28,983 bases of DNA from the IMG/VR virus record IMGVR_UViG_3300007735_000578, positions 1-28,983 of that record, one strand, 5' to 3'. Both the position numbers and the translations under genes were made by a program. This DNA comes from a virus. The notes beneath the pieces are model-generated. The model saw only the letters and a list, made by a program, of their open reading frames with translations, was not told the DNA's origin and searched no databases. Positions 7,955-22,692 of the stretch are shown in pieces; position 1 is the stretch's first letter; each line of letters starts with the position of its first letter.

Positions 7955-7983
7955 TTGACTAATATACATCCATATAGTACAAT
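7955..7983 (+). promoter_or_regulatory. Promoter of the HNH fusion gene
   Basis: TTGACT (7955-7960), a 17-nt spacer and TACAAT (7978-7983) are followed 10 nt later by ATG 7994. This is the same short-leader layout used by the small genes further right, and it decides the start in favour of 7994 over 7955. Confidence 0.7.
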
Positions 7984-7993
7984 ATATCATATT

Positions 7994-8440
7994 ATGATTT
8001 TACCTATACACACCAATAATAATTGCTTCGAATGCTATAGTACTACCAATATAGTATATCACCACGTAGTTCCAGAATCACTCGGAGGTAAAAATACCAT
8101 ACCTCTCTGCCAACCTTGTCACGATAAAGTTCATAACATAAAGCCCAGAAACATCTCTATATCAGAATTAACCAAAAAAGGTATTCAACGTGCAAAACAT
8201 CGTGGTGTCAAACTCGGCGGACCAAATCCAGAGAAATCAGTTAAAGCAATGAACATAGGCGCAGCTAAAGCCAAACAAGACTTTAAAAACAAACTGGTGC
8301 CTGTTATGCATAATCTAAAAAATAATGGATTCACTACTCTGCAAAGTATCGCAGACTATTTAAATAATAATAACATACCAACCAGAACAGGTAAAAAATG
8401 GTCACCTGGCACAGTACGCAACATATTGATATACAAATAA
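7994..8440 (+). CDS. HNH endonuclease fused to a serine-recombinase-type tail
   Basis: From ATG 7994 the product has 148 residues. The first 50 form a zinc HNH nuclease: C11-x2-C14, then H23-H24 with VVPESLGG, then CQPCHDKVH. The remainder (ISELTKKGIQRAKHRGVKLG, later SIADYLNNNNIPTRTGKKWS and GTVRNIL) closely follows the segment after the catalytic domain of small serine recombinases, including the 'A(K)xRGVKLG' linker and the 'IPTxxGxxWxxxTVRxIL' helix-turn-helix. The serine catalytic domain is absent. It is best read as a mobile nuclease that borrowed a recombinase DNA-binding tail. It has its own promoter and a terminator. Confidence 0.82.
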   Translation: MILPIHTNNNCFECYSTTNIVYHHVVPESLGGKNTIPLCQPCHDKVHNIKPRNISISELTKKGIQRAKHRGVKLGGPNPEKSVKAMNIGAAKAKQDFKNKLVPVMHNLKNNGFTTLQSIADYLNNNNIPTRTGKKWSPGTVRNILIYK

Positions 8441-8473
8441 ACACTCATCAACCTTTATCTCCTACAAGTATTC

Positions 8474-8498
8474 CCCCTCTATACCAAGAGGGGTTTTT
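8474..8498 (+). terminator. Rho-independent terminator after the HNH fusion gene
   Basis: CCCCTCT pairs with AGAGGGG across a 6-nt loop and is followed by TTTTT, 34 nt after the stop. Confidence 0.9.
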
Positions 8499-9286
8499 CA
8501 CATAGCCCCCCCCTCATTTTACCTCCCCCCCTCGCTTTTTTAAGTTCACAACACCACCCACCCTCATAAACATACACACCACCTCATCACCTCACCACAA
8601 TACACCACTAATCGCTTGTCAAATACTATTTCTCCCATAACCTCCCTTTATTCAACTATTCACTACTATTGACATTTTTGCTCAACAGCGTTGTATTGCC
8701 ACCAATACACGATATTACAACAAACATACACATTTGTATATATGTTAATTAATTAAGCGCTTAATTGTAACATTTATAAGCATAATAAGCACTATATCAC
8801 GTTTTCGTAGCGCTTATGTGCTTTTTTTATAGTGGCGCAACATATGTGTATATGGTGCTTGCGGTTATTGCTATTTTTGTTTCGTCTCGTTTACCCACAT
8901 CAAATTTAGCACTTGACAACATCCATCACGCTTTTGTCAAGTTATTTAGTTTTGTCATAAGATCATCTACTACATTGCCATATCATAAGTGACTCTACTT
9001 GTTCCACAGGATGCAGTCGCAAAATATATTAAGCTAAGACGTTTGACAACACCAAAAAGTGTGTTATGATAATATTGGGGGGTACTGAGGCTTATTTATA
9101 AATAATTATAACACAATAGTCGGGGTACGTCAAACACTAACGTTAATGGTATATAATAGTAATAGCATTATGTATATACATAACGTTTATTAATAGTATC
9201 AATGGGGGAATAAACAGCAATAAGTGATAAACCAGTGACATATCACTAATTTATCACGTTAGCGTTAACGTAACGCACGCAGCCTC
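8499..9286. other. Gene-free region with palindromes and TAACG repeats
   Basis: No convincing gene is present. The region holds a perfect 16-bp palindrome (8751-8766, AATTAAGCGCTTAATT), an inverted repeat ACTTGACAA / TTGTCAAGT (about 8912-8944), another perfect 16-bp palindrome (9168-9183, TTATGTATATACATAA), a nested inverted repeat around GTGATAAA/TTTATCAC (about 9221-9260), and TAACG/CGTTA repeats near 9138, 9183 and 9258-9276. It separates the mostly leftward left part from the rightward small-gene block. An origin of replication or a regulatory hub is the natural guess, but nothing proves it. Confidence 0.5.
9043..9070 (+). promoter_or_regulatory. Promoter without an obvious gene
   Basis: TTGACA (9043-9048), a 16-nt spacer and TATGAT (9065-9070). 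No start codon with a good frame follows, so the product may be a noncoding RNA covering the TAACG-rich region or a primer transcript. Confidence 0.55.
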
Positions 9287-9354
9287 CGGTGCCCTACCCT
9301 AGCTTTGTCAGCCGATCTTGTAAATACTTTACCACAGAGCCAGTCAAACCTCAA
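9287..9354 (-). ncRNA. Promoter-linked repeat element, copy 1
   Basis: On the minus strand TTGAGG (9354-9349), a 17-nt spacer and TAAAGT (9331-9326) are followed by AGATCGGCTGA (9318-9308) and AGCTAGGGTAGGGCACCGG (9305-9287). The same order occurs at 11481, 14203 (minus) and 21181. TAACG-type repeats lie just beyond. The conserved block starts where the transcript should start, so a short RNA or a leader with a control role is likely. No protein is encoded. Confidence 0.5.
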
Positions 9355-9414
9355 GCCTTTTCTTTGAAAAAGTGCGTTAACGGTAACGGTATGCACGCAG
9401 GGGGGGTGTAATTA

Positions 9415-9443
9415 ATTTTACCACGAATCGTCGGCAAAGTCAA
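9415..9443 (-). promoter_or_regulatory. Leftward promoter without a gene
   Basis: On the minus strand TTGACT (9443-9438), a 17-nt spacer and TAAAAT (9420-9415). The transcript would run through a C7 run and then GTTACCGTTAACG. It lacks the AGATCGGCTGA core. Confidence 0.5.
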
Positions 9444-9488
9444 GTTTTATTTGCGAAAAAGTGCGTTAGCGATAAAGTAATTTGGGTA

Positions 9489-9584
9489 GGCGCCGGTCCC
9501 CAACTCTCGGCGCCCTAGGGTCGGCCTCACACTGTCCTATGTCTTATTGTGGAGCTAGTCTACCAGCTCTGGCGCAGACCTCAA
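9489..9584 (-). ncRNA. Promoter-linked repeat element, divergent copy 2
   Basis: On the minus strand TTGAGG (9584-9579), a 16-nt spacer and TAGACT (9562-9557). Downstream GACCCTAGGG and GTTGGGGACC recall the tail of the other copies, but the AGATCGGCTGA core is replaced. GGCGCC at 9514-9509 can pair with GGCGCC at 9494-9489 to form a hairpin. The outward sequence leads to GCGTTAGCG repeats (about 9463). Confidence 0.4.
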
Positions 9585-9659
9585 GCTTTATTTTAAAAAA
9601 AGTGTAAAGTGTGGGTAGGGCTTGACAATCTGGGGATTCCTGATAGACTATTGTCCGTG

Positions 9660-9869
9660 ATGAAAAACAAGTCATTTAAGCCCGAGGTGCTAGTGGATGG
9701 TCAATGGTCAACGAACGCTCTGCGGTTCGCTACGGCGGAGGAAGCGTTTGGATCGATGATGGCGTTGCGGATGCGCTGGTGGGTGCCTACGGATGGTCGA
9801 GCCACTGAGAGCGAGGATCCGGTCAACTATCGGTTTGTGGATGGTAGGGATGTGCGGATTGAGGCTTGA
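9660..9869 (+). CDS. Small unknown protein, leaderless
   Basis: ATG 9660 is chosen because TTGACA (9622-9627) and TAGACT (9644-9649) lie 10 nt before it; the longer frame from 9609 would start upstream of the promoter. The 69-residue product (MKNKSFKPEVLVDGQW, then RFATAEEAFGSMMALRMRWW and SEDPVNYRFVDGR) resembles short phage and plasmid proteins of the type 'VDGxWxxNxLRFATxEEA' that I have seen without assigned function. Its stop TGA is part of the -35 box of the next gene (GCTTGACA). Confidence 0.65.
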   Translation: MKNKSFKPEVLVDGQWSTNALRFATAEEAFGSMMALRMRWWVPTDGRATESEDPVNYRFVDGRDVRIEA

Positions 9870-9903
9870 CAGCCAGGAATTCTCTGGTAGACTATTGTCC
9901 ACG

Positions 9904-10020
9904 ATGAAGAACGATCTTGATACGGCGTTGATGCTGATTATGGGCTGGATTGCGTTTGCGATGTTGGTCGCTGCTGTGAATCTGGTGGTTGTGGTTGGAA
10001 AGTTGATTTTTGGGGCTTGA
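9904..10020 (+). CDS. Small membrane protein
   Basis: The 38-residue frame starts at ATG 9904, 10 nt after TAGACT (9888-9893; -35 TTGACA 9866-9871). After MKNDLDTAL it is almost wholly hydrophobic (LIMGWIAFAMLVAAVNLVVV), giving one membrane helix. The stop TGA again lies inside the next gene's -35 box. No family can be named. The promoter, the spacing and the single-pass design support a real gene. Confidence 0.55.
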   Translation: MKNDLDTALMLIMGWIAFAMLVAAVNLVVVVGKLIFGA

Positions 10021-10053
10021 CATTTTAGAAAAAGCTGATAAAGTATTAAAACA

Positions 10054-10278
10054 ATGAATAAGGTAACGTTTAAGCGGGTTGTGAATCAAAGTCTTCCCAA
10101 TTTGTATAGTGGAACGATTAATGGTGAGATTGTTGGGTTTATATATAAGCCTAATGATAGCAAGAGTGATAGAAATGCTTGGCGTAGTTATGTTGGTGTG
10201 GGTGATAATGCTAAGTTTTTGTATCATACGTGGGATATGAATGATGCTATGGAGGCGGTACAATTGGCGGTTAAGTAA
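10054..10278 (+). CDS. Small unknown protein, leaderless
   Basis: This 74-residue product starts 9 nt after TAAAGT (10039-10044) with TTGACA at 10017-10022 and a 16-nt spacer. It reads as a compact alternating domain: VTFKRVVNQSLPNLYSG, then EIVGFIYKPNDSKSD, RNAWRSYVGVG and a C-terminal helix WDMNDAMEAVQLAVK. No family is recognised. The same promoter sequence (TTGACATTTTAGAAAAAGC) stands before the gene at 16088, so the two may be co-regulated. Confidence 0.65.
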   Translation: MNKVTFKRVVNQSLPNLYSGTINGEIVGFIYKPNDSKSDRNAWRSYVGVGDNAKFLYHTWDMNDAMEAVQLAVK

Positions 10279-10288
10279 ATAACATATT

Positions 10289-10327
10289 GTCATTGGGATG
10301 GAAATAAATTGAATTAATCTCAATGAC
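10289..10327. other. Long inverted repeat before the HNH gene
   Basis: GTCATTGGGAT (10289-10299) pairs with ATCTCAATGAC (10317-10327), 11 bp with one G-T, across a 17-nt loop. No T run follows. It may be a weak terminator of the gene at 10054 or mark the edge of the inserted endonuclease gene. Confidence 0.45.
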
Positions 10328-10361
10328 CATAATATATATTATCTGAAAGGATAATTATATT

Positions 10362-11003
10362 ATGAGTATTAAAAGACCAGATAAGTTTGTATGTAGATGG
10401 GCAAAGAGATTAAGAGCCTATAATGATTTGGGAGGTGAATGTAATAGATGTGGGGAAACTGACATATTTAAATTACATTTTCATCATACAGATCCTACTC
10501 AAAAAGAATTTGAAATGAGTAAAATTACGGCTCACGTTCCGTGGCCGATTATTAAACAAGAACTTGATAAGTGTATTTTACTTTGTGCTAATTGTCATAC
10601 ATCTTTACATTCAGAAGATTCAAGAAAAAAGTTTGAATTGTTATATGACAAAATATTAGAGAAAAGTAAAGTAGTAGAAAATATATCAAGACCTGAGTTA
10701 GACTCTGATTATATCTATAAGTTATTAAAAGAAAAGAAAAGCATTGCTCAGATTGGAAAGATTTTGGGTAAAGACCCATCAACTATATTAGACATAGCTG
10801 AAAGACTACAAGATAAATATGGTGAAAAGTTATTCTTAACAAGAGAAGAATATAACAAAGATAAACAAAAGGTTGATCAAGACGAATTGATTAGTTTGGT
10901 ACGTAATGGAGAGTCCGTAAAAAACATCGCAAAAAAGTTTGACTCTGCGCAAAGTACGGTGTACAATCTTATCCGTAAGTTGAAACGGAAACAAAAATTA
11001 TAA
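10362..11003 (+). CDS. HNH homing-type endonuclease with helix-turn-helix tail
   Basis: The 213-residue product has a zinc HNH nuclease near its start (CNRCGETD, LHFHHTDPTQKEF, CILLCANCHTSLH) followed by two helix-turn-helix-like repeats (KKSIAQIGKILGKDPSTIL and ESVKNIAKKFDSAQSTVYNL), the usual build of free-standing homing endonucleases. Unlike the phage genes around it, it has a Shine-Dalgarno site (AAAGGA, 10346-10351, 10 nt before ATG) and no short-leader promoter. That suggests recent arrival. It ends 5 nt before the gene at 11009, which may now depend on its transcript. Confidence 0.87.
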   Translation: MSIKRPDKFVCRWAKRLRAYNDLGGECNRCGETDIFKLHFHHTDPTQKEFEMSKITAHVPWPIIKQELDKCILLCANCHTSLHSEDSRKKFELLYDKILEKSKVVENISRPELDSDYIYKLLKEKKSIAQIGKILGKDPSTILDIAERLQDKYGEKLFLTREEYNKDKQKVDQDELISLVRNGESVKNIAKKFDSAQSTVYNLIRKLKRKQKL

Positions 11004-11008
11004 AATAT

Positions 11009-11428
11009 ATGGCTACCCGTGGAAATATTGGTATCGTGAATGAAGACGGTTCTATTACCGTTATCTATGTTCATTGGGATTCTTATCCTGAGTATGTGGG
11101 TAAGATTCTTTTGAATCACTACACTACTTCTGATATTGTCAATGAACTATTGAAGTTGGGTAATCTGAGTCAGTTGTGTGAGAATGTGAATCCTACTGAG
11201 TCTCACACTTTTGCTGAACCTCAAAAGGGAGTGTGTGTTGCTTATGGTCGTGAACGTGGTGAGAAGGATCAGGAGGCTATTGTGTTTGAGGATCTGGGTG
11301 AGTTTGAGGATAGTGCTAGTAACAGTTGGGCTGATTATCAGTACTTGTTTGACAATGGTAAGTGGTCCTATCGTAATGTGAATAACACGTTGGGATGGAG
11401 GGAGTTGACCCAGACAGTTTGTGGTTAA
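11009..11428 (+). CDS. Unknown phage/plasmid protein of the 'MATRGxIGI' type
   Basis: The 139-residue protein opens MATRGNIGIVNEDGSITVIY, followed by HWDSYPEYVG and a long middle with LGNLSQL, and ends in a tryptophan/tyrosine-rich segment (SWADYQYLFDNGKWSYRNV). I have seen this opening (short hairpin, 'YxHWDxYPExVG') in small phage and plasmid proteins of unknown function. It has no promoter of its own in the 5-nt gap after the HNH gene, so it is read from upstream or was separated from its promoter by the HNH insertion. Confidence 0.75.
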   Translation: MATRGNIGIVNEDGSITVIYVHWDSYPEYVGKILLNHYTTSDIVNELLKLGNLSQLCENVNPTESHTFAEPQKGVCVAYGRERGEKDQEAIVFEDLGEFEDSASNSWADYQYLFDNGKWSYRNVNNTLGWRELTQTVCG

Positions 11429-11480
11429 TTTATAAACAAGAAAGGTTGTGGGTGATCCTTTGAAACCCTCAAGAAAGTTG

Positions 11481-11550
11481 TTGACTTTCCTGGCTGATCT
11501 GGTAAAGTAGGTTCCAGATCGGCTGAAGGGAGCCAGGGTAGGGTACCTGG
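11481..11550 (+). ncRNA. Promoter-linked repeat element, copy 3
   Basis: TTGACT (11481-11486), a 16-nt spacer and TAAAGT (11503-11508) are followed by CCAGATCGGCTGA and AGCCAGGGTAGGGTACCTGG. CCAG at 11514 can pair with CTGG at 11547, closing a stem. AACGATAACG (11568-11577) lies downstream, as in the other copies. No open frame follows until the next gene's own promoter, so the product is probably a short RNA of about 40-60 nt. Confidence 0.5.
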
Positions 11551-11644
11551 GGGTAATTTAAAATTTTAACGATAACGTAGAAAGTTGCAGAAAGTTGCAA
11601 AAAACAGTTGACTTTGGACCAGGTTGGTCTATACTGTTTCCACG

Positions 11645-11977
11645 ATGAAGATTTCCTCCGCTGTTACCGAGTACGTCAAGGTTCAACTCTCAACCAATCC
11701 CGCTTGGGCTCAACGAGCCATCGTGAAGCTGTGGGAACGTCAAACGTCCGATGAACAGGCTGCTCAGACCACGGGACACAACAATGGTGTGGGTTTCAAT
11801 GGTACTGATGCTTTTATTCTTAGCTCATTTGCTGAACAAATCAACAAGGGTCGTACTCTTAGTCCTAAACAGTTGACTATAGCGTTCAAGAAGCTTCCCA
11901 AGTATAGTAAACAGATTATCAGTGAAATACCCGCTGATAAACTGAGTGAGATTGAGAAAAAAGCGGTTGTTGCTTGA
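11645..11977 (+). CDS. Unknown protein of the 'QTxDEQ…GVGFxGxD' type
   Basis: ATG 11645 lies 9 nt after TATACT (11630-11635; -35 TTGACT 11608-11613). The 110-residue product has WAQRAIVKLWERQTSDEQAA, NGVGFNGTDAFILSS and LSPKQLTIAFKKLPKYSKQI. I know this series of blocks from small plasmid and phage proteins and from the ends of some larger replication-associated proteins, but no activity is established to my knowledge. It is mostly helical with a basic C-terminus. Its stop TGA sits in the next -35 box. Confidence 0.7.
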   Translation: MKISSAVTEYVKVQLSTNPAWAQRAIVKLWERQTSDEQAAQTTGHNNGVGFNGTDAFILSSFAEQINKGRTLSPKQLTIAFKKLPKYSKQIISEIPADKLSEIEKKAVVA

Positions 11978-12013
11978 CAAATGGGGGTATATCCCCTATA
12001 CTTGTTATATAAG

Positions 12014-12217
12014 ATGAATACTGATTTGACTGTATTGTTTAAGACTATTACCGAGAGTGTACCCAATTATATTATGTTTATTATATTAATTGTGTTGGGT
12101 TATTCACTGTGTGTAGCATTTGTGAAGACATTGAGTGACAATGTGGTCAAGGTGGTGTTGGCTGCTCGTGCTCCGGTTGAATTCAAGATCCGTGATGGCA
12201 GCGACACTGAAAAATAA
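12014..12217 (+). CDS. Small single-pass membrane protein
   Basis: ATG 12014 follows TATACT (11997-12002; -35 TTGACA 11974-11979, spacer 17) by 11 nt. The 67-residue product has one long membrane helix (about residues 18-38, NYIMFIILIVLGYSLCVAF) and a short charged C-terminal tail (EFKIRDGSDTEK). No family is known. A longer frame from 11981 overlaps the promoter and is not used. Confidence 0.6.
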   Translation: MNTDLTVLFKTITESVPNYIMFIILIVLGYSLCVAFVKTLSDNVVKVVLAARAPVEFKIRDGSDTEK

Positions 12218-12268
12218 TTCAAAAAAGTGCTTGAGGTTTCTAGGGGGTCGTGATAATCTATTTACACA

Positions 12269-13627
12269 ATGAACGTTGAACTTCTACTTCCTCCCCAACG
12301 GGAGCACGCTGTTAATATGCTTAACAGTTTGTATATCAATGGTGTTGCTTGTGATCAGAGTGAGACTGGTACTGGCAAGACTTATGTGGCTGCTTGGATT
12401 GCTAAGAATCTTAATAGTCCAGTGGTTATTGTGTGTCCCAAGATTATGATGCCTGCTTGGACCACGGTCTTGAGTTATTTTGGTATTAAGGCTCATTGTT
12501 TGATTAACTATGAGAAATTGATTCGGGGTAACACTGAACATTTATCATTTAAAGATGGTAAGGATAATCTTCCTAGTGATTATACTATTAACTTCCCCAA
12601 GAATAGTTTGGTTATTCTGGATGAAGTACATAAGTGTAAGTCTAGTACCAGCAAGAATAGTGATTTTCTTATTAAGTTGAAGATGGATGGTTATAAGTCA
12701 TTGTTGCTTAGTGCTACTAGCGCTACCAATCCGTTGGAGATGAAAGCGTTTGGTTTTGCTACTACTCTTCACAATCTTACTAGTTATCGTCAGTTTATCA
12801 CTGATAGTGGTGCTTATGTTGGACGATATGGTGGATTTCAGATTGATCTACAGAGTCAAAAGACTGTAGAGGCTATGTCTAACATTCACGATAAGCTATT
12901 TAATCTGTATAAGGTTAGTAGCCGTATGACCCGAAAGATGTTTGACAAGATCTTTCCTGACAATCACGTGATGGCTGAATGTTTTGATATGGGTACCAAT
13001 ACTGATAAGATCAACAAGGTATATCTTCAAATGGAGTCTGAATTGGCTGCTTTGGAGGAATCCAGTGTCAATTATAGTCAACATCACTTTGCTATTATGA
13101 CTAAAGCTCGTCGTATGGCTGAATTGTTGAAGGTACCCACTATGGTTGAAATGATTGAAGATTGGTATGATGAGGGTATCAGTCCTGTGGTGTTTGTGAA
13201 TTTCACTGACACTGTTGAGGCTATTGAGAAACAATTGGCTAAGAATAGGAAGTTTGATGGTACTATTGCTAGGATTGTTGGGGGACAATCTGATAAGGTT
13301 AGACAAAAGGACATTGAATTGTTTCAGAGTGATGACAAACGAATTATGATTGCTAATTTAGCTGCTGGTAATGCAGGAGTTAGTTTGCACGATTTGATTG
13401 GTAATCATCCACGTGGTAGTATTATTAGTCCTAGTTACAGTGCTATTAATCTTCTTCAGGCTTTAGGACGTTGCCACAGAGCCGAAGGTAAAACTCCAGT
13501 AATTCAAAAGGTGATGTTCGCAGCTGGGACTATTGAGGAAGATGCTTGTAAACGTGTACAGTCTAAGCTTAATAACTTGGAATGTCTTAATGATGGTGAT
13601 TTGACTTATAGTGTTCGTATTGCTTAA
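12269..13627 (+). CDS. SNF2/DEAD-like superfamily 2 helicase
   Basis: The 452-residue enzyme has the ordered SF2 motifs: Walker A SETGTGKTY (Lys37), VVIVCPKIMMPAW (Ia), DEVH at 118-121 (motif II), LLSATSATNP (motif III), VVFVNFTD (IV), GNAGVSLHD (V) and QALGRCHRAEGK (VI). The order and the compact size fit phage SNF2-type or T4 UvsW-like DNA translocases acting in replication, recombination or transcription. ATG is 9 nt after TAATCT (12254-12259), with a TTGAGG -35 (12231-12236). A 90-residue gene follows 11 nt downstream and is probably co-transcribed. Confidence 0.88.
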   Translation: MNVELLLPPQREHAVNMLNSLYINGVACDQSETGTGKTYVAAWIAKNLNSPVVIVCPKIMMPAWTTVLSYFGIKAHCLINYEKLIRGNTEHLSFKDGKDNLPSDYTINFPKNSLVILDEVHKCKSSTSKNSDFLIKLKMDGYKSLLLSATSATNPLEMKAFGFATTLHNLTSYRQFITDSGAYVGRYGGFQIDLQSQKTVEAMSNIHDKLFNLYKVSSRMTRKMFDKIFPDNHVMAECFDMGTNTDKINKVYLQMESELAALEESSVNYSQHHFAIMTKARRMAELLKVPTMVEMIEDWYDEGISPVVFVNFTDTVEAIEKQLAKNRKFDGTIARIVGGQSDKVRQKDIELFQSDDKRIMIANLAAGNAGVSLHDLIGNHPRGSIISPSYSAINLLQALGRCHRAEGKTPVIQKVMFAAGTIEEDACKRVQSKLNNLECLNDGDLTYSVRIA

Positions 13628-13638
13628 TATATAAATTT

Positions 13639-14203: not shown

Positions 14204-14265
14204 GCTAAAAGTGCAAAAAAGAATGGGGGCTTGACTTCTGGGTTGGCTGTGGTACTCTAATGAAG

Positions 14266-14451
14266 ATGAACAAACTCAAGTATTGGATTTTGGTTACCGC
14301 AGCTCTTGTTAAGGTGTTTACCCCATCAATTTTGATGTTTGGGTCTGCATTTGTGTTCAATGGCACGTTGGTTGGGGATGCTATGTTTATTTTAGGTATT
14401 TGCAGCCTTGGTTGGATTACCGACATCAATTTCCCGCAAAAGCCTGAATAA
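14266..14451 (+). CDS. Small membrane protein
   Basis: TTGACT (14231-14236), a 16-nt spacer and TACTCT (14253-14258) place the transcript start near the second of two close ATGs, so 14266 is preferred over 14260. The product (61 residues) has two hydrophobic segments (YWILVTAALVKVF and AMFILGICSLGWI) separated by a short loop, fitting a two-pass membrane protein. No family is known. Confidence 0.6.
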   Translation: MNKLKYWILVTAALVKVFTPSILMFGSAFVFNGTLVGDAMFILGICSLGWITDINFPQKPE

Positions 14452-14501
14452 GCTAAAAAAGGTGTTGACTTTGGGGTTGGTTGTGGTAATCTATTTCCAC
14501 G

Positions 14502-14807
14502 ATGAAGCTACTGACTGCTGAACTGACCGCCAAGCTGAACGAGGCTGGCTACGACAACGAAACCCCGATCTGCAAGCTCTTTACTCCGTGGGGACGGGCT
14601 ACCTGGTTGATTACCGGAATGGAGGATGGTATTCTGTATGGGTACGCCGATCTGGGTATGGGATGTGTGGAGTGGGGTGGTATTGAGACTCTGGAGGCTC
14701 TGGAGTCGATTCGGGGTCCGTTTGGACTGAAGATCGAACGAGATCTCTACTGGACCCCAAAGGAGGGTGTGAACTATTCCGAGAAAGAAAGTCTGATTGG
14801 GGCTTGA
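14502..14807 (+). CDS. DUF2958-like protein
   Basis: The 101-residue product follows the DUF2958 pattern: an LLTAELTAKL opening, CKLFTPWGRATWLITGM, GYADLGMGCVEWGGIETLEA and an end of type SIRGPFGLKIERDLYWTP. The family is common on plasmids and phages, and its function is unknown. ATG is 9 nt after TAATCT (14487-14492; -35 TTGACT 14465-14470). The stop TGA lies in the next gene's -35 box (GCTTGACA). Length is normal for the family. Confidence 0.82.
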   Translation: MKLLTAELTAKLNEAGYDNETPICKLFTPWGRATWLITGMEDGILYGYADLGMGCVEWGGIETLEALESIRGPFGLKIERDLYWTPKEGVNYSEKESLIGA

Positions 14808-14840
14808 CATTTTCTGAAAGTCTGGTAGGATATTTCCACA

Positions 14841-15050
14841 ATGAATCCTGAAATTAGAGAGATTGAGAAGCGGTTGATGAACATCCGTCTTGACAAGTAT
14901 GAAGTTGACCAGGGACTTATGTTGAATTGTTTGGTTGGTGCTTTGGTTGGACATATTGTTTGGCAAGATGGTGAGGGTAAGGTTAGTGCTAGTGATATTG
15001 TGAGTGCTATTGAACGTACTCACCAAGCGTGTAAGTTGGTTACTAAATAA
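14841..15050 (+). CDS. Small helical unknown protein
   Basis: The 69-residue product starts 9 nt after TAGGAT (14826-14831), with TTGACA at 14804-14809. It is helical throughout: EIREIEKRLMNIRLDKYEVD, then MLNCLVGALVGHIVWQDG and ASDIVSAIERTHQACKL. No motif is recognised. The next gene (15069) follows after an A-rich 18-nt gap without its own promoter and is probably in the same transcript. Confidence 0.65.
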   Translation: MNPEIREIEKRLMNIRLDKYEVDQGLMLNCLVGALVGHIVWQDGEGKVSASDIVSAIERTHQACKLVTK

Positions 15051-16023: not shown

Positions 16024-16087
16024 GTAATCGGGGTAATCAAAAAAAGTTGTTGACATTTTAGAAAAAGCTGATAAAGTATTACCCACG

Positions 16088-16285
16088 ATGAAAATCAAAG
16101 TTACGGATATTGTTTACGATACTGATATTGATGATGATAGCACTACGTTTGTGCTTAATTCGGATTTACCGAGTGAGATGATTGTGGAGGTTGATGGTAT
16201 TATTGATATTGAGTCAGAGATTGCTGATGCTATTAGTGATACAACTGGATGGTGTGTTAGTGGTTACAACTACGAGGTTCTGTAA
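16088..16285 (+). CDS. Small acidic unknown protein
   Basis: The 65-residue product (MKIKVTDIVYDTDIDDDS, later IIDIESEIADAISDTTGWCV) is acidic and looks like a strand-helix unit. ATG lies 10 nt after TAAAGT (16072-16077), with TTGACA at 16050-16055; this promoter is nearly identical to that of 10054. The next gene (16300) shares its transcript. Confidence 0.62.
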   Translation: MKIKVTDIVYDTDIDDDSTTFVLNSDLPSEMIVEVDGIIDIESEIADAISDTTGWCVSGYNYEVL

Positions 16286-16685: not shown

Positions 16686-16732
16686 AAAAAGCCGTTGACT
16701 TCTGCTGATGCTTGGTGTAGGATATATCCACA

Positions 16733-16915
16733 ATGAAGATTTTCACTAACGATAACGCCGAGGTTGAAGTGGAAGATAGTTGGCAAGAGGAATGTCCCCA
16801 ATGTGGTGACACGAATGTTCAATGCCACTACATCCCAAACTGGGCTGCAACTCGTTGTTATGACTGCCTGGTTAACGAAGCGATCAAGTTTCATTATCGG
16901 GTTGAAGAAAAGTAA
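16733..16915 (+). CDS. Small zinc-ribbon protein
   Basis: The 60-residue product has CPQCGDTN (about residues 21-28) and CYDCLVNEA (42-50): two CxxC pairs that would bind one zinc. Between them lies QCHYIPNWAATR. It starts 9 nt after TAGGAT (16718-16723), with TTGACT at 16695-16700 and a 17-nt spacer. Such ribbons bind nucleic acid or protein; the partner is unknown. Confidence 0.65.
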   Translation: MKIFTNDNAEVEVEDSWQEECPQCGDTNVQCHYIPNWAATRCYDCLVNEAIKFHYRVEEK

Positions 16916-17174: not shown

Positions 17175-17222
17175 AAAAAGTGGTTGACTTCTCAACCTAA
17201 ATCCTGTAAAGTATTAACCACT

Positions 17223-17429
17223 ATGAATATGATGACGTTGGAAGAATGGAAGGCTATGAATGAAGAAACCATTACGATTAGCCGATATGAATACGAAAAA
17301 TTCAAGTATGACCAGTTATTTCTACAACTTTTGCGTCAGTGTGGAGTTAGTGACTGGGAACGATATGAAAGTGTCGTTAATTCTATGGAAGACTATGAAA
17401 TGAGAAAGAAAGCCCCAAAGATTTTCTAA
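17223..17429 (+). CDS. Small unknown protein, leaderless
   Basis: ATG 17223 lies 10 nt after TAAAGT (17207-17212), with TTGACT at 17184-17189 and a 17-nt spacer; the longer frame from 17184 begins in the -35 box and is rejected. The 68-residue product (TLEEWKAMNEETITISRYEY, then FLQLLRQCGVSDWERYESVV) is helical and resembles short phage proteins with a 'SxxEYxxL' helix, function unknown. Confidence 0.62.
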   Translation: MNMMTLEEWKAMNEETITISRYEYEKFKYDQLFLQLLRQCGVSDWERYESVVNSMEDYEMRKKAPKIF

Positions 17430-17436
17430 AAAGTGG

Positions 17437-17465
17437 TTGACTTTCGGGTGGGGTGATGGTAAGAT
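17437..17465 (+). promoter_or_regulatory. Promoter of the structured-RNA block
   Basis: TTGACT (17437-17442), a 17-nt spacer ending in TGG, and TAAGAT (17460-17465). This is the same class as the gene promoters, but no start codon follows. The predicted transcript starts with the hairpin at 17471. Confidence 0.75.
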
Positions 17466-17470
17466 ATTTT

Positions 17471-17820
17471 CAGTTGATGGGACCGGAAGGAATACGACTG
17501 CAACCTATCAACTGACAGCTAACTCAGAGAGTGCTAGTCAATAGATGCCGAGCATGGGGCGACTGGTGATGCCGCTGAGGAAATGGAGAACCAGGCCTGC
17601 TGCCAACAATGAAATCTGGACAATTTTTTAGTTCTTTTAATAATTTTGATTGAATATCTATTGTTAGCTTAATTAAAGCAATCGGTCAATCCCCGTCAAG
17701 ATGTAGTAACCAATCTACACAATAGTAAACATCAAACTGGTTGATGAGGCTATAGCCAATTCAAGTATATGTAAAGCAGAGGAAATTGTTGGGACTCTGC
17801 CATCAACCAAACCAATTTTT
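17471..17820 (+). ncRNA. Structured RNA of unknown class
   Basis: No gene is present. CAGTTGAT (17471-17478) pairs with ATCAACTG (17507-17514) at the expected transcript start. A second long helix, TGGTTGATG (17738-17746) with CATCAACCA (17801-17809), encloses GGCTATAGCC (17748-17757) and the helix GCAGAG (17775-17780) / CTCTGC (17795-17800), and is followed by a T6 run. The stretch 17520-17620 can form further short stems. There is no tmRNA tag, RNase P core or group I core that I can recognise. At least two RNAs may be present. Confidence 0.5.
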
Positions 17821-17821
17821 T

Positions 17822-17904
17822 GAATAATAGTATCAGATAGACATCTTAGTTAGAACTGATCATTCTATAGAATATGAGTGGTTTAAGTCCACTTACTAGT
17901 ATTC
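17822..17904 (+). tRNA. tRNA-like element, anticodon not identifiable
   Basis: GAATAATAGTA (17822-17832) pairs with TACTAGTATTC (17894-17904), 11 positions with one mismatch. A T-arm-like hairpin AGTGG-TTTAAGT-CCACT (17877-17893) directly touches the 3' strand, as in a tRNA. AGAT-AGAC-ATCT (17835-17846) stands where the D-arm should be but has a 4-nt loop. The 30 nt between (17847-17876) form small hairpins but no 7-nt anticodon loop. It may be a degenerate, interrupted or decoy tRNA. Confidence 0.35.
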
Positions 17905-17928
17905 AATAACAAGACAACAGATAGACAC

Positions 17929-18000
17929 GTAGGCAAAGCATTCGGTTAATGCGCTGGTATAATAATACTAGAGATTGGGTCCGACTCCCAATTGCTTATA
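17929..18000 (+). tRNA. tRNA-like gene with 8-nt anticodon loop
   Basis: A full cloverleaf can be drawn: acceptor GTAGGCA/TGCTTAT (7 bp, two G-T), D-stem GCAT/ATGC with loop TCGGTTA, anticodon stem CTGGT/ACTAG closing an 8-nt loop ATAATAAT (17959-17966), variable AG, and a 6-bp T-stem ATTGGG/CCCAAT with loop TCCGACT. The 8-nt anticodon loop, the long T-stem and C at position 55 are unusual. No CCA is encoded. An AAT anticodon could be read after T17960, but identity is not assigned. The following 18001-18070 starts GGGAA and ends TTCCC and may be another small RNA. Confidence 0.45.
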
Positions 18001-18171
18001 GGGAACGTATCGCTATACCACAATGGTAATGTGAGTGAGATCCTGAAAACTTGTTATCTTCATTTTCCCAAATTAAAATAATATCGTAGTTTTATAAAAA
18101 GCATAATTATTAGCGCTGAAAGCGGCTAAGAAAATGCTTGACTCCTGAAAAATTCCTGATAAATTATAAAA

Positions 18172-18309
18172 ATGAAAACTAAAATTAAGATTCGTAAGAC
18201 CTGGGGCGATTTGAAGCCTGTTACCAAGCGCATTGAGTCTGATAAGATTTACAAGCGCAGTAGGAACAAGTACAACTTCAATGATTACAGTTGGGGAGAC
18301 CTTAATTAA
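18172..18309 (+). CDS. Very small basic protein
   Basis: The 45-residue frame starts at ATG 18172, 6 nt after TAAATT (18160-18165), with TTGACT at 18138-18143 and a 16-nt spacer. The product is strongly basic (MKTKIKIRKTWGDLKPVTKR, then IYKRSRNKYNFNDYSWGDLN). Two WGDL blocks stand near the start and at the end. No family is known. The gene at 18328 follows 18 nt later and shares the transcript. Confidence 0.6.
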   Translation: MKTKIKIRKTWGDLKPVTKRIESDKIYKRSRNKYNFNDYSWGDLN

Positions 18310-18327
18310 TTTAAAATAATAATAAAT

Positions 18328-18615: not shown

Positions 18616-18616
18616 G

Positions 18617-19531
18617 TTATTTTACTAAAATCCAACCGTGTATAGATTTTTGATTTCCAGTTATAAATCTATTGAAATTACACGGACACTTACCAAAGTA
18701 TTTCATATACCAATCATATTTACAACCGGTGAAAATCTCACCGGTTTTTTCGTTTTTAAATATAAATGTCGTTTTGTCTTTTTTGCCTTGGGAAATCTTA
18801 TTTGAATGTTCTTTGGATTTACAATATTCACTGTGTTTTTTTCTGAACTCATCTGTGAATTGTTGTTTGGCTTTTTCTCTTAATTTACATTTTGTTTCCT
18901 CAGATGTTTTCAATCCTCTATTCCACGCTGGAACATTTGTTCTTAATCCTTTGTTCCACGCAGGCCTGCCTTTTATATTCCAATAAGCTTTTCTACCACG
19001 CATAGGTGCTGTGGCATCATAAGCAATCATATAGTTGTTGTCCGGATTGTTTTTACATTCATCAAGATATCTTTGTTCAACTTCCAATAATTTACTAACA
19101 TCAGATACAGATTCAACTATAATATATTCAAAGTTATTTATACCATACTTGTTGTAAGCATTTTGAAGATGTTTGTTCCAATGTTTGTTTTTCTTCAAAT
19201 TGCTTTTATGTCTTTCCCATCTACGTTTTATATTTTGTGAACTACCCACATAATATTTGCCATTAACATTGTTGATTATCTTGTATATCCCGCTCTTTGG
19301 ATTCATAGTATCTTTCAAGTCGTTGTTTATTAAGTCGTTTTTTGTTTCGTTCATAGTAACGCAACTGTCTTTCTCTTCTAGCTTCAAGTTGTTCTGATTC
19401 TGATTTGTATATTTGTTTTCTTCCCATAAGTCCTTTGTTTCTATTGGTGGTAACATATCTATTGCTTTATATATTGCCACACGTTTACAAATTGCTTTTT
19501 CTATTATATCATAGTTTATATTGTTGTCCAT
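18617..19531 (-). CDS. GIY-YIG homing endonuclease with NUMOD3-type tail
   Basis: The 304-residue product has the GIY-YIG nuclease domain starting at G81-I-Y83 and continuing to Y94-V-G96, with RRWERHKSNL carrying the conserved Arg and NNFEYIIVE the strand before the catalytic Glu. Repeats of NUMOD3 type follow (WNKGLRTN, WNRGLKTSEETKCKLREK), then a C-terminal strand-rich end. The first 75 residues are not typical, and an internal Met76 is an alternative start. AGAGGA stands 12 nt before ATG 19531, while most phage genes lack such a site. Reversed orientation in a rightward block also marks it as mobile. Confidence 0.88.
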   Translation of the reverse strand: MDNNINYDIIEKAICKRVAIYKAIDMLPPIETKDLWEENKYTNQNQNNLKLEEKDSCVTMNETKNDLINNDLKDTMNPKSGIYKIINNVNGKYYVGSSQNIKRRWERHKSNLKKNKHWNKHLQNAYNKYGINNFEYIIVESVSDVSKLLEVEQRYLDECKNNPDNNYMIAYDATAPMRGRKAYWNIKGRPAWNKGLRTNVPAWNRGLKTSEETKCKLREKAKQQFTDEFRKKHSEYCKSKEHSNKISQGKKDKTTFIFKNEKTGEIFTGCKYDWYMKYFGKCPCNFNRFITGNQKSIHGWILVK

Positions 19532-19651
19532 AGTTATTTAATTTCCTCTACTTATATATATTAAAGTAGAGGAATAAAAGTAGAAGAAAAGTGAAAAAAC
19601 TTGAGGGTGGGGCTTGACTTTCCGATGGGGTCATGGTAAAGTATCTAAACA

Positions 19652-20224
19652 ATGAAAGACATTCCTGAGAAATTCGTGAAGAACTGTGATCTGGTTGGTA
19701 ACAACACTTTTATCCAGATCAAGAAAGAGGGTAACGTGTATATGTATCGTCGTGAACGTATGGATGGTACTATCAAGAGTTATGAAGTGTTTCTCGGCAA
19801 GTTTATTGCAAAGGGAACTCCTCTGCCTGGTGGTGTTGTAGAAAAGGAAGATCGTATCCAATATCCTGGAAGTGCCCAGTTTGGTAAGACGGCGTATGAT
19901 TGTAAGACTGAAGCTCAAGCTGAACAACGTTTCGAGGAACTTCTAAAGAAGTCTGCTAATCAAGCAGAAGCTAAGGAAGAGGCTGCTAAGACTGGTGTTC
20001 GCAATCGTGGTCGTCGTGGTGCTAGTAAGAAGATTAAGCTGGATATGACTCTCAATAAGGGTACTAAGTTTACAGCTAAGTTTCTTATGACTGTACTGGG
20101 AGTGACTCAACCTGTGTTGTTTCCTATCATTAAACAGTGGGAAAAGGATGGGGTAATCAAGGCTAATGGCACTGTCAAGGCTGAAGGTAAGGGTCGTCCT
20201 AGCACCGAATACATCGTGGTTTGA
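19652..20224 (+). CDS. DNA-binding-like protein with winged-helix C-terminus
   Basis: The 190-residue product has an N-terminal strand-rich domain (NNTFIQIKKEGNVYMYRRER, then YEVFLGKFIAKG), a basic linker (RNRGRRGASKKIKLD) and a C-terminal domain TKFTAKFLMTVLGVTQPVLF followed by GRPSTEYIV, typical of a winged helix with an AT-hook-like tip. The C-terminal layout recurs in the next gene. ATG is 9 nt after TAAAGT (19637-19642; -35 TTGACT 19614-19619). A regulatory or nucleoid role is inferred. Confidence 0.65.
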   Translation: MKDIPEKFVKNCDLVGNNTFIQIKKEGNVYMYRRERMDGTIKSYEVFLGKFIAKGTPLPGGVVEKEDRIQYPGSAQFGKTAYDCKTEAQAEQRFEELLKKSANQAEAKEEAAKTGVRNRGRRGASKKIKLDMTLNKGTKFTAKFLMTVLGVTQPVLFPIIKQWEKDGVIKANGTVKAEGKGRPSTEYIVV

Positions 20225-20285
20225 TCCAAAAAAAGTTGAAGAAAAAGCTTGTTTTCTCCACAAACTCTGGTAAATTAGACACGTA

Positions 20286-20639
20286 ATGAACAACGTCTCC
20301 ACTGATTCGAATATGAACTCCACCTCCACCAAGACCTCCAAGGTTGGTCGTCCTGCCAAGGCTCTCAAGTTGATCCTCAACAAGAGTTTCACTATCAAGG
20401 ATCTTCAGACTCTCAATCCTGATATCAAGTTTGTGACCATCCGAGCTGCTGTGCTTCGTGGGTTGTCCAATGGCAAGTATACCAAGCTTCCTCGTAATGT
20501 CCAGACTGGAAAGAAGGGCAAGCCTGCCAATATCTTCATCAATACCAAGGTCTACAAGGCTAACCTCGCCAATCTCGCCAAGACCAAGGCTGTCGCCACT
20601 GTGACTGCTGAGGTTGTGACTGAGCCGGTTGTTGCTTGA
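20286..20639 (+). CDS. AT-hook / helix-turn-helix-like protein
   Basis: The 117-residue product has SKVGRPAKALKL (AT-hook-like GRP), NKSFTIKDLQTLNPDIKFVT (helix-turn-helix-like), KGKPANIFI matching the GRPSTEYIV wing of the gene before, and an Ala/Val/Thr-rich tail. ATG is 9 nt after TAAATT (20271-20276) with a weak -35 (TTGTTT 20249-20254). It is probably a relative of 19652-20224 that kept only the DNA-binding part. Confidence 0.62.
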   Translation: MNNVSTDSNMNSTSTKTSKVGRPAKALKLILNKSFTIKDLQTLNPDIKFVTIRAAVLRGLSNGKYTKLPRNVQTGKKGKPANIFINTKVYKANLANLAKTKAVATVTAEVVTEPVVA

Positions 20640-20664
20640 TCATTCTTTAAAAAAAGTACAAAAA

Positions 20665-20696
20665 CCCTTGACTTTGAACGGTCAAGGGTTTATTCT
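20665..20696 (+). promoter_or_regulatory. Combined terminator hairpin and promoter
   Basis: CCCTTGAC (20665-20672) pairs perfectly with GTCAAGGG (20681-20688), followed by TTTATTCTTTT: a terminator for the gene before. The same bases contain TTGACT (20668-20673) and, 17 nt on, TATTCT (20691-20696), the promoter of the gene at 20706, whose ATG is 9 nt later. Confidence 0.6.
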
Positions 20697-20705
20697 TTTG
20701 GGGTA

Positions 20706-21089
20706 ATGAAAAAGAACCTAATTCACGTTATCTATCCTGACGAAGCCACTTATTCTTATGTTGCCACTAATGATATGTCTGTGGAAGACAATCTGGAACG
20801 TGTATTTGCTGAGTGGAACCATGGTAGTGGTATGGAATGTGAAATGTTTATCAAATCCAATAAGCGTTCACTGAGTGTCAATGACATTGTATGTGTTAAT
20901 GGTAAGTATTTTCAGTGTCAATCAGTTGGTTGGAATAAAGTGACTGATGAATATGTTATCAACCTTGAGAATGATGTTGCTAACAGTCCTCGACGGTCTG
21001 AAGGTGCCTGGTTTGCTCTAAGTGATGTGATGTACAGTCGCAGTCCCGATGGCGCTGAGGCTACGTTGGACGGAATAGATGTCTTCTAA
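20706..21089 (+). CDS. Unknown phage protein
   Basis: The 127-residue product reads MKKNLIHVIYPDEATYSYVA, VEDNLERVFAEWNHGSGMEC, SVNDIVCVNGKYFQCQSVGW and an end with SRSPDGAEATLDGIDVF. The 'SVxDIVxVxGxxxxCxSVGW' block is one I have seen in small phage and integrative-element proteins without known function. It is leaderless (TATTCT 20691-20696). A strong terminator follows at 21137. Confidence 0.7.
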   Translation: MKKNLIHVIYPDEATYSYVATNDMSVEDNLERVFAEWNHGSGMECEMFIKSNKRSLSVNDIVCVNGKYFQCQSVGWNKVTDEYVINLENDVANSPRRSEGAWFALSDVMYSRSPDGAEATLDGIDVF

Positions 21090-21136
21090 AGGGTAGCCAG
21101 AACGCCCTATAGGCCTCATACAGACACTTTGATTGA

Positions 21137-21169
21137 TTGGGAGGGTCAACACACCCTCCCAATTTTTTT
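21137..21169 (+). terminator. Strong rho-independent terminator
   Basis: TTGGGAGGGT (21137-21146) pairs with ACCCTCCCAA (21153-21162), followed by seven T. Confidence 0.92.
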
Positions 21170-21180
21170 GCACTTTACTG

Positions 21181-21245
21181 TTGACTTCCTGACTGGGTAG
21201 TGTAGAGTCTTTACAGATCGGCTGAACAAGCTAGGGTAGGGGACC
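21181..21245 (+). ncRNA. Promoter-linked repeat element, copy 5
   Basis: TTGACT (21181-21186), a 16-nt spacer and TAGAGT (21203-21208) lead into AGATCGGCTGA (21215-21225) and CTAGGGTAGGGGACC (21231-21245). GTTAACATTAACGCAC (21264-21279) follows, then the promoter of the next gene. Layout and spacing match copies 1, 3 and 4. A strong terminator sits just upstream, so this is an independent transcript. Confidence 0.5.
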
Positions 21246-21334
21246 AAAGAGTGCGCTGATTACGTTAACATTAACGCACAAAGTTAAAGAAAGTGCTTGA
21301 GGTTTTGAGTTGGGTACTGTAGGATATTTCCACA

Positions 21335-21577
21335 ATGAACGTTGCTTCTATCGCTTCCAACAAGATCAAGGTTGAGTATTCCGCCGTACCGGGTGACAAC
21401 CGTGAGTTCCTCACCTTCAGCGTGCCGAACGGCTGGGATGATGTTAAGCGGCTCGTCAACCGAGTGCTGACCTACAACAACAAGGATTTCACCTTCAGCG
21501 GCTGGAACAGCGACCGCAATGAGTGCTACTTTGTTCGCTTGGTCAATGGAATGAGCTTCGTCGCTACGATTAAGTAA
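21335..21577 (+). CDS. Small unknown protein of 'NGWDDVK' type
   Basis: The 80-residue product (MNVASIASNKIKVEYSAV, FLTFSVPNGWDDVKRLVNRV, TFSGWNSDRNECYFVRL) looks like a strand-helix-strand unit that I have seen as stand-alone small plasmid and phage proteins. ATG is 9 nt after TAGGAT (21320-21325), with TTGAGG at 21297-21302; this promoter is nearly identical to that of 22540. GC content is higher than in its neighbours. Confidence 0.65.
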   Translation: MNVASIASNKIKVEYSAVPGDNREFLTFSVPNGWDDVKRLVNRVLTYNNKDFTFSGWNSDRNECYFVRLVNGMSFVATIK

Positions 21578-21638
21578 ATCGTGGGTAGTTAAAAATAACT
21601 GTTGACTTTCTCTAAAAATCCTGTAAGATATTTCCACA

Positions 21639-21830
21639 ATGAAGATCACGATTGAGTTTGATACCGACAATGCAGAGTTTGAAGATAATCGTCTGATGGC
21701 GGTTACTCGCATAATGAAAAACGTCAAGGAAAAAGTGTTGGATTGTGTTTTTGATGGAGTTGGCCCTATTCGTACTCCTATCAAAGATATCAATGGAAAT
21801 CGTGTGGGTGTTCTTGAAATTAAACTCTAA
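21639..21830 (+). CDS. Small unknown protein, leaderless
   Basis: The 63-residue product (MKITIEFDTDNAEFEDNR, then MKNVKEKVLDCVFDG and GNRVGVLEIKL) has a strand-helix-strand layout. ATG is 9 nt after TAAGAT (21624-21629; -35 TTGACT 21602-21607). Two further genes (21842, 21985) follow with short A/T spacers and are probably co-transcribed. Confidence 0.62.
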   Translation: MKITIEFDTDNAEFEDNRLMAVTRIMKNVKEKVLDCVFDGVGPIRTPIKDINGNRVGVLEIKL

Positions 21831-21841
21831 GTAATAATAAT

Positions 21842-21973
21842 ATGGACCCAGAAGATATTGCTTATGAAGATAGTGTCAGTAGTGACACTGCTGGTTGGCC
21901 TGGTGATGGTAGTGGAGAAGATGACTTTCAAGACTACAATCAAAACGAAGCTTCGGATTATTACAACGAATAA
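21842..21973 (+). CDS. Very small acidic protein
   Basis: The 43-residue frame (MDPEDIAYEDSVSSDTAGW, later GSGEDDFQDYNQNEASDYY) is extremely acidic, with no basic residue. It lies 11 nt after the previous stop and 11 nt before the next ATG, each spacer being TAATAAT-like. Acidic mini-proteins of phages often mimic DNA or bind host enzymes, but nothing here proves that. Confidence 0.55.
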   Translation: MDPEDIAYEDSVSSDTAGWPGDGSGEDDFQDYNQNEASDYYNE

Positions 21974-21984
21974 ATAATAATAAT

Positions 21985-22266
21985 ATGACTCTTACACAAC
22001 GATATTCCAATGATACTATGATCCGCAACTATGATCGTATTTATGATCCTGGTCATAGTTGGTTAGAAGTGCCTATCAAAGATGTTCGTGATAGTGGTAT
22101 CTATAATAAGATTACAGCCTATTCACCAATTAAAGGTGGTATGATGTACCTGGAAGAAGATTGTGATATGTACACCTTCTACAAAGCTATGACTGATAAA
22201 GGATACACTATCAATATCACTAATATCAATGTAGATGACTTTGATCAATATTTAGCCACTAAGTAA
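21985..22266 (+). CDS. Small unknown protein
   Basis: The 93-residue product (MTLTQRYSNDTMIRNYDRI, PGHSWLEVPIKDVRDSGIYN, KGGMMYLEEDCDMYTFYKAM) looks like a compact alpha/beta domain. Its C-terminal GYTINITNINVDDFDQYL has 'DxxxF' spacing. I know no family. It lies in the 21639 operon, and no Shine-Dalgarno site is seen. Confidence 0.65.
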   Translation: MTLTQRYSNDTMIRNYDRIYDPGHSWLEVPIKDVRDSGIYNKITAYSPIKGGMMYLEEDCDMYTFYKAMTDKGYTINITNINVDDFDQYLATK

Positions 22267-22270
22267 TATT

Positions 22271-22477
22271 ATGAGTACAATGGAACAATTCAAAGAAAAC
22301 CTCAGTATGAAGCTATTTGGCCGTAGTGTCATACTAGCACAAGCCGGTAATCAATGTGTTGAATGTGGTAAACAAGCAACATACTTTCGTGACGCTCTTA
22401 GTGCAAAAGAGTATAAGATCAGTGCCACTTGCCAACCCTGTCAAGACAAGTACTGGGGCATTCACCAAGCTGAGTAA
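22271..22477 (+). CDS. Small zinc-binding protein
   Basis: The 68-residue product has CVECGKQAT (about residues 33-41) and CQPCQDKYW (57-65), two CxxC pairs separated by about 20 residues, with DALSAKEYKIS between them. This fits a zinc ribbon like the 'xFRDxLSxKEYxISGxCQxCQD' proteins I recall from phages, function unknown. It starts 4 nt after the previous stop in the same operon. Confidence 0.7.
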   Translation: MSTMEQFKENLSMKLFGRSVILAQAGNQCVECGKQATYFRDALSAKEYKISATCQPCQDKYWGIHQAE

Positions 22478-22539
22478 TCAAAAAAAAGTTGAAGAAAGTG
22501 CTTGAGGTTTCGGTCTGGGTACTGTAGGATATTTCCACA

Positions 22540-22692
22540 ATGAACGCTGACTTCAACACGATTGATCCGCAAAACGAACTTTCTGACCTCTACACTCCCG
22601 ACTATCGGGAAGAAGCTCTCAACGAAGATCGTTATTTAGAGATGGCTTACGAGGATCGGTTTGAAATGCCTTGTATGGAGGACTATCAGTAA
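22540..22692 (+). CDS. Very small acidic protein, leaderless
   Basis: The 50-residue frame starts 9 nt after TAGGAT (22525-22530), with TTGAGG at 22502-22507. The product (MNADFNTIDPQNELSDLYT, then YREEALNEDRYLEMAYEDR, ending MEDYQ) is acidic and helical. No family is known. Its promoter matches that of 21335 over the whole TTGAGG to ATGAACG segment apart from the spacer middle. Confidence 0.6.
   Translation: MNADFNTIDPQNELSDLYTPDYREEALNEDRYLEMAYEDRFEMPCMEDYQ

Follow-up and report, generated by a model that had tools for sequence, protein, structure and literature searches.

Known leaderless systems and the stretch studied here

Leaderless initiation is usually seen as a side route in phages, known from single examples or from Thermus phages. 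In the Thermus thermophilus phage YS40, most middle and late mRNAs are reported to lack a leader, and during infection host IF2 goes up and IF3 goes down, according to a review (PMC3594737). A survey of bacteria has taken a TAnnnT signal near the start codon as the mark of leaderless genes (PMC3160421), and the late promoter of phage T4 consists of nothing but an 8-bp AT box, placed roughly one helical turn ahead of the start, with no -35 box (PMC2988020). Here we analyse a linear IMG/VR virus record of 28,983 bases (IMGVR_UViG_3300007735_000578; the whole stretch is called the window below), a fragment of its phage genome, in which promoters of the sigma70 type stand directly before the ATG of many genes. 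Together with its relatives it points, with a probability of about 0.8, to a largely leaderless expression programme independent of Shine-Dalgarno (SD) sites, in which the AUG is fused both to early promoters of the sigma70 type and to a late promoter of the T4 type. Leaderless phage mRNAs being already known from YS40, what would be new is the fusion of two promoter classes to the AUG within the T4 superfamily.

The likeness to YS40 is that a promoter box lies directly before the ATG of many genes, with no leader. However, the host of YS40 is a thermophile rich in leaderless genes, and no link between that phage and the present clade was seen; unlike YS40, the clade has a sigma70-type and an AT-box class both at leaderless distance, lies in the T4 superfamily and carries promoter-ATGAA cassettes. 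As in the leaderless TA-led genes of Actinobacteria and Deinococcus-Thermus (PMC3160421, PMC12340547), TAnnnT stands right before the start without an SD site, and it does so here about 6-12 nucleotides (nt) from the start far above chance; those genes belong to host chromosomes and have a gap of about 6, whereas the clade has strong -35 boxes and a common gap of 9 nt. With the T4 superfamily the clade shares homologues of the capsid, portal, protease, UvsX, SSB and tail proteins and, as its probable late promoter, an AT box standing alone, yet T4 combines TATAAATA boxes at 7-45 nt with SD sites, and the same script finds in T4 no early or late junctions at leaderless distance. T4-type phages reportedly also have promoter-early-stem-loop cassettes (described by Arbiol et al. 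in 2010), in which early promoters go with modular, variable small genes. In the present clade, by contrast, the promoter is fused to the ATG, and the pairing of a stem-loop with the early promoter at gene boundaries, which defines such cassettes, is not seen, a terminator-like hairpin lying within 100 nt at only 16% of early-type starts.

Early-type promoter-ATG junctions

On its two strands the window holds 45 TTGA(C/G)-N16-18-TAnnnT combinations, and in 22 cases an open reading frame (ORF) of 30 codons or more opens with an ATG 5-11 nt downstream, while ten first-order Markov shuffles of the sequence give a mean of 0.4 (ORFs were called by a simple greedy longest-first rule). A comparable excess of early junctions over shuffles is present in contigs G001-G004, and in G000 a similar search pattern gives 14 matches forward and 1 when read backwards; the contigs are mutually related, so these counts are not independent. 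Internal Met codons, taken as a further control, carry the early type at about 0.5% and the late type described below at 0.3%. The junctions are as follows, each given as -35 box, spacer length, -10 box, gap and start.

7955-7996, plus strand: TTGACT-17-TACAAT-10-ATG 7994 (HNH endonuclease gene)
9622-9662, plus strand: TTGACA-16-TAGACT-10-ATG 9660
9866-9906, plus strand: TTGACA-16-TAGACT-10-ATG 9904 (ORF of 38 amino acids)
10017-10056, plus strand: TTGACA-16-TAAAGT-9-ATG 10054 (orthologues compared)
11608-11647, plus strand: TTGACT-16-TATACT-9-ATG 11645
11974-12016, plus strand: TTGACA-17-TATACT-11-ATG 12014
12231-13627, plus strand: TTGAGG-17-TAATCT-9-ATG 12269, with the DNA helicase gene that it drives
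14231-14268, plus strand: TTGACT-16-TACTCT-7-ATG 14266
14465-14504, plus strand: TTGACT-16-TAATCT-9-ATG 14502 (orthologues with diverged spacers)
14804-14843, plus strand: TTGACA-16-TAGGAT-9-ATG 14841
16050-16090, plus strand: TTGACA-16-TAAAGT-10-ATG 16088
16695-16735, plus strand: TTGACT-17-TAGGAT-9-ATG 16733
17184-17225, plus strand: TTGACT-17-TAAAGT-10-ATG 17223
18138-18174, plus strand: TTGACT-16-TAAATT-6-ATG 18172
19614-19654, plus strand: TTGACT-17-TAAAGT-9-ATG 19652
20249-20288, plus strand: TTGTTT-16-TAAATT-9-ATG 20286 (weak member)
20662-20708, plus strand: TTGACT-17-TATTCT-9-ATG 20706, the -35 box inside a terminator-like hairpin
21297-21337, plus strand: TTGAGG-17-TAGGAT-9-ATG 21335
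21602-21641, plus strand: TTGACT-16-TAAGAT-9-ATG 21639
22502-22542, plus strand: TTGAGG-17-TAGGAT-9-ATG 22540

These are the 20 starts that an earlier note on this DNA had picked out from the sequence alone, and every one of the ATGs exists. The boxes and spacing it described, namely TTGAC(T/A) or TTGAGG, a 16-17 nt spacer, TAnnnT and a gap of 6-11 nt, apply to 19 of them, the departure being 20286 with TTGTTT, whose orthologues mostly have TTGATT as the -35 box. The alternative in-frame ATG for this gene, at 14260, would follow the -10 box of the 14266 promoter by just 1 nt, which makes 14266 the better start. A further candidate, start 13639, was left out, as TTGACT and TAATAT in the 3' end of the helicase gene probably cause the match.

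Among six genomes (the window, G002, G003, G004, G005 and G010), 119 module genes carry the junction, with gaps from TAnnnT to ATG of 6 (4 genes), 7 (3), 8 (3), 9 (93), 10 (14) and 11 nt (2), so that the statement "mostly exactly 9" holds well beyond the window; the spacer is 16 or 17 nt in nearly all. The codon at the 9-nt position is ATG 98 times, and no long ORFs starting with GTG or TTG at this position were seen among the exceptions inspected. The recurrent junction named in the earlier note, TTTCCAC(A/G)ATG, is real and reaches into the gene: 97% of early-type starts have A at +4 and 79% read ATGAA, a sequence present at 19-21% in other start classes; A stands at -3 in 76% and C at -2 in 65%. 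When orthologue pairs with the same spacing are aligned, identity is 94% in the -35 box, 79% in the junction and 63% in the spacer core, and in some orthologue families the boxes stay fixed while the spacers diverge. In addition, AAAA stands upstream of the -35 box in 69% of early promoters and may be an UP-like element. In many cases the distance to the gene before is 33-66 nt, about what the promoter alone takes up. Gene content is variable, many units being found in one genome only, and the promoter-ATG junction is constant.

The early type is not genome-wide, as had been claimed, and clusters in a small-gene module of about 15 kb and in a second cluster at 99-109 kb of G003, with the same -35 and -10 boxes and often 6-7 nt gaps. 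A single gene per unit is also true only in part: many genes have their own promoter, and about one third of module genes come second or third in an operon.

To place these figures among other phages, we scanned for a strict pattern, TTGAC-N18-TAnnnT-N6-10-ATG, with the pattern read backwards as control (control matches in brackets) and YS40 as positive control. The clade genomes G011, G003 and G010 have 16 (0), 24 (1) and 12 (1) matches. T4 has 2 (0), Syn9 1 (0), P23-45 1 (0), Mel-JY01 1 (0), RM378 0 (1) and immuto 0 (2), with 0 for SPO1, D29 and Pepy6; HTVC008M has 3 (2), Mosig 8 (0), Melnitz 11 (0) and YS40 13 (1). The density of such junctions is accordingly unusual for a phage when set against T4, Syn9, SPO1, D29, Pepy6, immuto, Mel-JY01 and RM378, with 0-2 matches, but not unique, given the counts in YS40, Melnitz and Mosig. 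The cultured pelagic T4-like phages Mosig (MT647606) and Melnitz (MZ577097) have TTGAC-TAnnnT-ATG junctions yet keep SD sites, and because of these retained sites they are a mixture of modes.

Shine-Dalgarno usage and a second box

With SD sites counted as AGGAG or GGAGG at most 18 nt from the start, the clade genomes have them at 0.8% (G003), 2.9% (G005), 0% (G010), 1.3% (G002), 2.4% (G011) and 2.3% (G012) of starts, versus 10.6% in T4, 13.0% in Mosig and 22.6% in Melnitz. Extended-SD 5-mers occur at 55 of 471 starts versus 10.5% of internal Met codons, that is, they are barely enriched. The lack of an SD site predicted in the earlier note has the support of sequence statistics and of conservation among relatives. 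SD sites are absent also from immuto, a gp23 relative with a Flavobacterium host. The promoter-ATG architecture, its enrichment and conservation, and the near-absence of SD sites are direct observations.

Beyond the 20 starts, the junctions recur in six genomes, and outside the module there is a second box, TATTTAT, first seen directly before many ATGs in the upstream sequences of structural genes. TATTTAT lies 4, 5 or 6 nt before the ATG at 71 sites versus a background of about 1 per position, and at 6-20% of called starts versus 0-0.35% of internal Met codons in clade genomes, while this spacing is absent or rare in T4, cyanophages and pelagiphages. In G003 the early junctions concentrate at 66-109 kb, and the late boxes are spread across the structural, replication and transfer RNA (tRNA) regions. 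Four sites were noted in the window.

239-253, plus strand: TATTTAT, 5 nt, ATG 251
3078-3092 (approximate extent), minus strand: TATTTAT 4-6 nt before ATG 3080
3783-3797 (approximate extent), minus strand: TATTTAT before ATG 3785
27546-27560 (approximate extent), plus strand: TATTTAT 4-6 nt before ATG 27558

Of the early- and late-type starts, 16-19% have a terminator-like hairpin upstream, versus 3% of box-less starts. The gene for a protein of 113 amino acids at 32234-32575 of G003, like its relatives, has a hairpin with a T-run, next CTATTTATAGATAT and after it the ATG; some 14 nt separate the end of hairpin and T-run from the ATG, space for little beyond the box. Because of this placement of hairpins, and because the T4 late promoter is a similar lone AT box, TATTTAT is probably the late promoter of the clade. 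The T4 late box TATAAATA was tested in the same role and is not enriched here. Compared with the earlier note, the clade adds a second box at leaderless distance, operon-internal genes, and some of the same promoters on non-coding RNA-like units.

Proposed expression programme and its alternatives

In the programme that we favour, the early small genes would be exchangeable cassettes, each made of an A-rich stretch, TTGACT, a 16-17 nt spacer often ended by TG, TAnnnT, TTTCCAC(A/G) and ATGAA, and would probably be transcribed by the host RNA polymerase with its main sigma factor directly after injection. Applying the usual sigma70 geometry, we place +1 at the conserved A at -3 in the 9-nt class (ACR-AUG) and at the AUG itself in the 6-nt class; transcription would initiate there, and ribosomes would start on the 5'-terminal AUG without an SD site. 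The transcript start within 0-4 nt of the ATG, as the earlier note had it, is a prediction with which the sequence statistics and the conservation in relatives agree. Structural and replication genes would use (A/C)TATTTAT 4-6 nt before the ATG, probably read by a late sigma factor like T4 gp55, again yielding leaderless messages. Where the actual 5' ends lie, which polymerase serves each class, the early or late timing and the binding of ribosomes to a 5' AUG are what we infer from these sequences. On balance we also lean, less firmly, towards the broader view that SD initiation has been given up by an entire clade of the T4 superfamily, abundant and uncultured, its early genes and its late genes (through a diverged T4-type late sigma factor) being leaderless and its early cassettes exchangeable.

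Several observations weigh against such a programme. The one third of module genes mentioned above are operon-internal, preceded by short AT-rich gaps in place of a promoter, or have longer leaders, without SD sites; in a few module genes 14-25 nt separate the -10 box from the ATG, likewise without an SD site. Gaps of 9 nt are about 3 nt beyond strict leaderless spacing, and many 5' ends may carry a 3-nt leader. The 4-6 nt gaps after TATTTAT leave about +/-2 nt of uncertainty on the 5' ends, and no gp55-like late sigma factor was found among the proteins scanned, which are a subset from genome fragments.

A first alternative, which we think improbable, is expression from short leaders without SD sites, where transcripts would start upstream or read through, an AT-rich unstructured upstream region would drive translation, as proposed for Bacteroidota, and the closeness of box and ATG would reflect genome compaction. 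The operon-internal genes with AT-rich upstream regions suit this idea, as do the frequent A at -3, -5 and -11 of structural genes and the SD-less immuto; moreover, the units are seldom separated by hairpins, which makes read-through likely. However, the gap is fixed at 9 nt and not just short, it is kept in most orthologues, ATGAA is confined to the early class, and immuto, A-rich upstream as it is, has few junctions (early 1%, late 2%). Next, and likewise unlikely, TATTTAT may be a translation-initiation element and not a promoter, which would limit leaderless expression to the early module. Its distance from the ATG fits such an action, and the negative search for a T4-type late sigma factor among the scanned proteins speaks for it too. 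Yet the gap to the upstream gene is at most 12 nt in 6% of TATTTAT starts versus 42% of box-less genes, TATTTAT starts are about six times likelier than box-less genes to follow terminator-like hairpins, and the T4 late promoter is equally a lone 8-bp AT box without a -35 box (PMC2988020). That the pattern comes from chance in AT-rich DNA, or from repeats as a side effect, has hardly any probability in spite of 33-37% GC and several near-identical junctions, being refuted by the shuffles (0.4 versus 22) and the internal Met codons, and opposed by the many unrelated genes behind the junctions and by spacers that diverge between orthologues.

If leaderless expression through both promoter classes is the right reading, it is here the apparent default for the starts of transcription units in a large T4-related clade, with two unrelated promoter classes and near-zero SD usage, and the clade would be a stringent test of the extent to which 5'-terminal AUGs can sustain a complex lytic programme. 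It would also point to a host whose ribosomes accept 5'-terminal AUGs well. Annotation tools that look for SD sites to place start codons would get these genes wrong, and the promoter-ATG junction could serve as a search pattern for related phages.

Relatives and phage membership

At the DNA level, a comparison of the region with known phage records gave no match. The helicase (12269-13627) as query found four relatives, including G003 (115.6 kb), G002 (91 kb) and G004 (46.7 kb); searching with a conserved structural protein gave at least 80 IMG/VR contigs for the clade. G005 (134 kb) has structural genes in common with G003 and module genes in common with the window, and encodes a gp23-type major capsid protein (PF07068, E=5.6e-73), a gp20-type portal (PF07230, E=8.2e-70), a gp15 homologue, UvsX (phrog_97, E=1.1e-73), an SSB homologue and a T4-type head protease (phrog_207, E=2.8e-53). 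The closest gp23 proteins among isolates are those of Microcystis phage Mel-JY01 (49.5%) and Flavobacterium phage immuto (48.5%). From these T4-type genes and the distance of the isolate gp23 proteins it follows that the window belongs to a distant, uncultured clade of the T4 superfamily (Caudoviricetes). G011 (279 kb) and G012, with 42% and 37% identity in the query structural protein, keep both promoter features; the clade genomes have 33-37% GC.

As for the host, the conserved structural protein found no relative in GTDB genomes. WhiB was looked for in 19 relatives and PsbA in 17, and neither was found, while positive controls worked; bS21 was not found in 17 relatives. Literature searches, of incomplete coverage, gave no description of this clade. 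The relatives carry a one-piece transfer-messenger RNA (tmRNA) with a conserved tag, e.g. AEDNVVSYDFSYDEVVALAA; a degenerate pattern of this tag peptide had no match in GTDB genomes.

G003 (L008), 9425-9809: tmRNA
G002, 27454-27838: tmRNA
G004, 27199-27582: tmRNA
G010, 27639-28021: tmRNA

Non-coding units and other elements

Within the gene array, a non-coding stretch at 17437-18130 begins with an early-type promoter followed by an RNA-like unit, GTTGATGGGACCGGAAGG..., and an Rfam search of this stretch gave no credible match.

17437-17640, plus strand: early-type promoter TTGACT-17-TAAGAT, then a structured non-coding RNA-like unit, no gene

Similar promoter-driven units are present in G002, G003, G004 and G010, some with a length of about 92 nt and a long closing stem (z from about -2.2 to -2.5). 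A repeated unit at 9317 (minus strand), 11517 (plus), 14167 (minus) and 21216 (plus) has an early-type promoter and then GATCGGCTGA..AGCYAGGGTAGGG..ACC, and most copies go on to an inverted repeat of the ACGTTAAC type; it is present too in G002, G003, G004, G005 and G010, with no ORF of its own seen, and is possibly a family of small RNAs or operators. At 20662-20691, the hairpin CCCTTGAC..GTCAAGGG and then TTTATTCTTTT holds the -35 box of the 20706 promoter, an arrangement kept in relatives such as G002 and G005, and may act both as terminator and as promoter. Two HNH endonuclease genes and a GIY-YIG homing endonuclease gene (7994-8440, 10362-11003 and 18617-19531) lie within or beside the array, placed between promoter units. 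Finally, an Rfam tRNA match extends over 123 nt at 28243-28365, which ARAGORN does not list and which is perhaps an intron-bearing tRNA.

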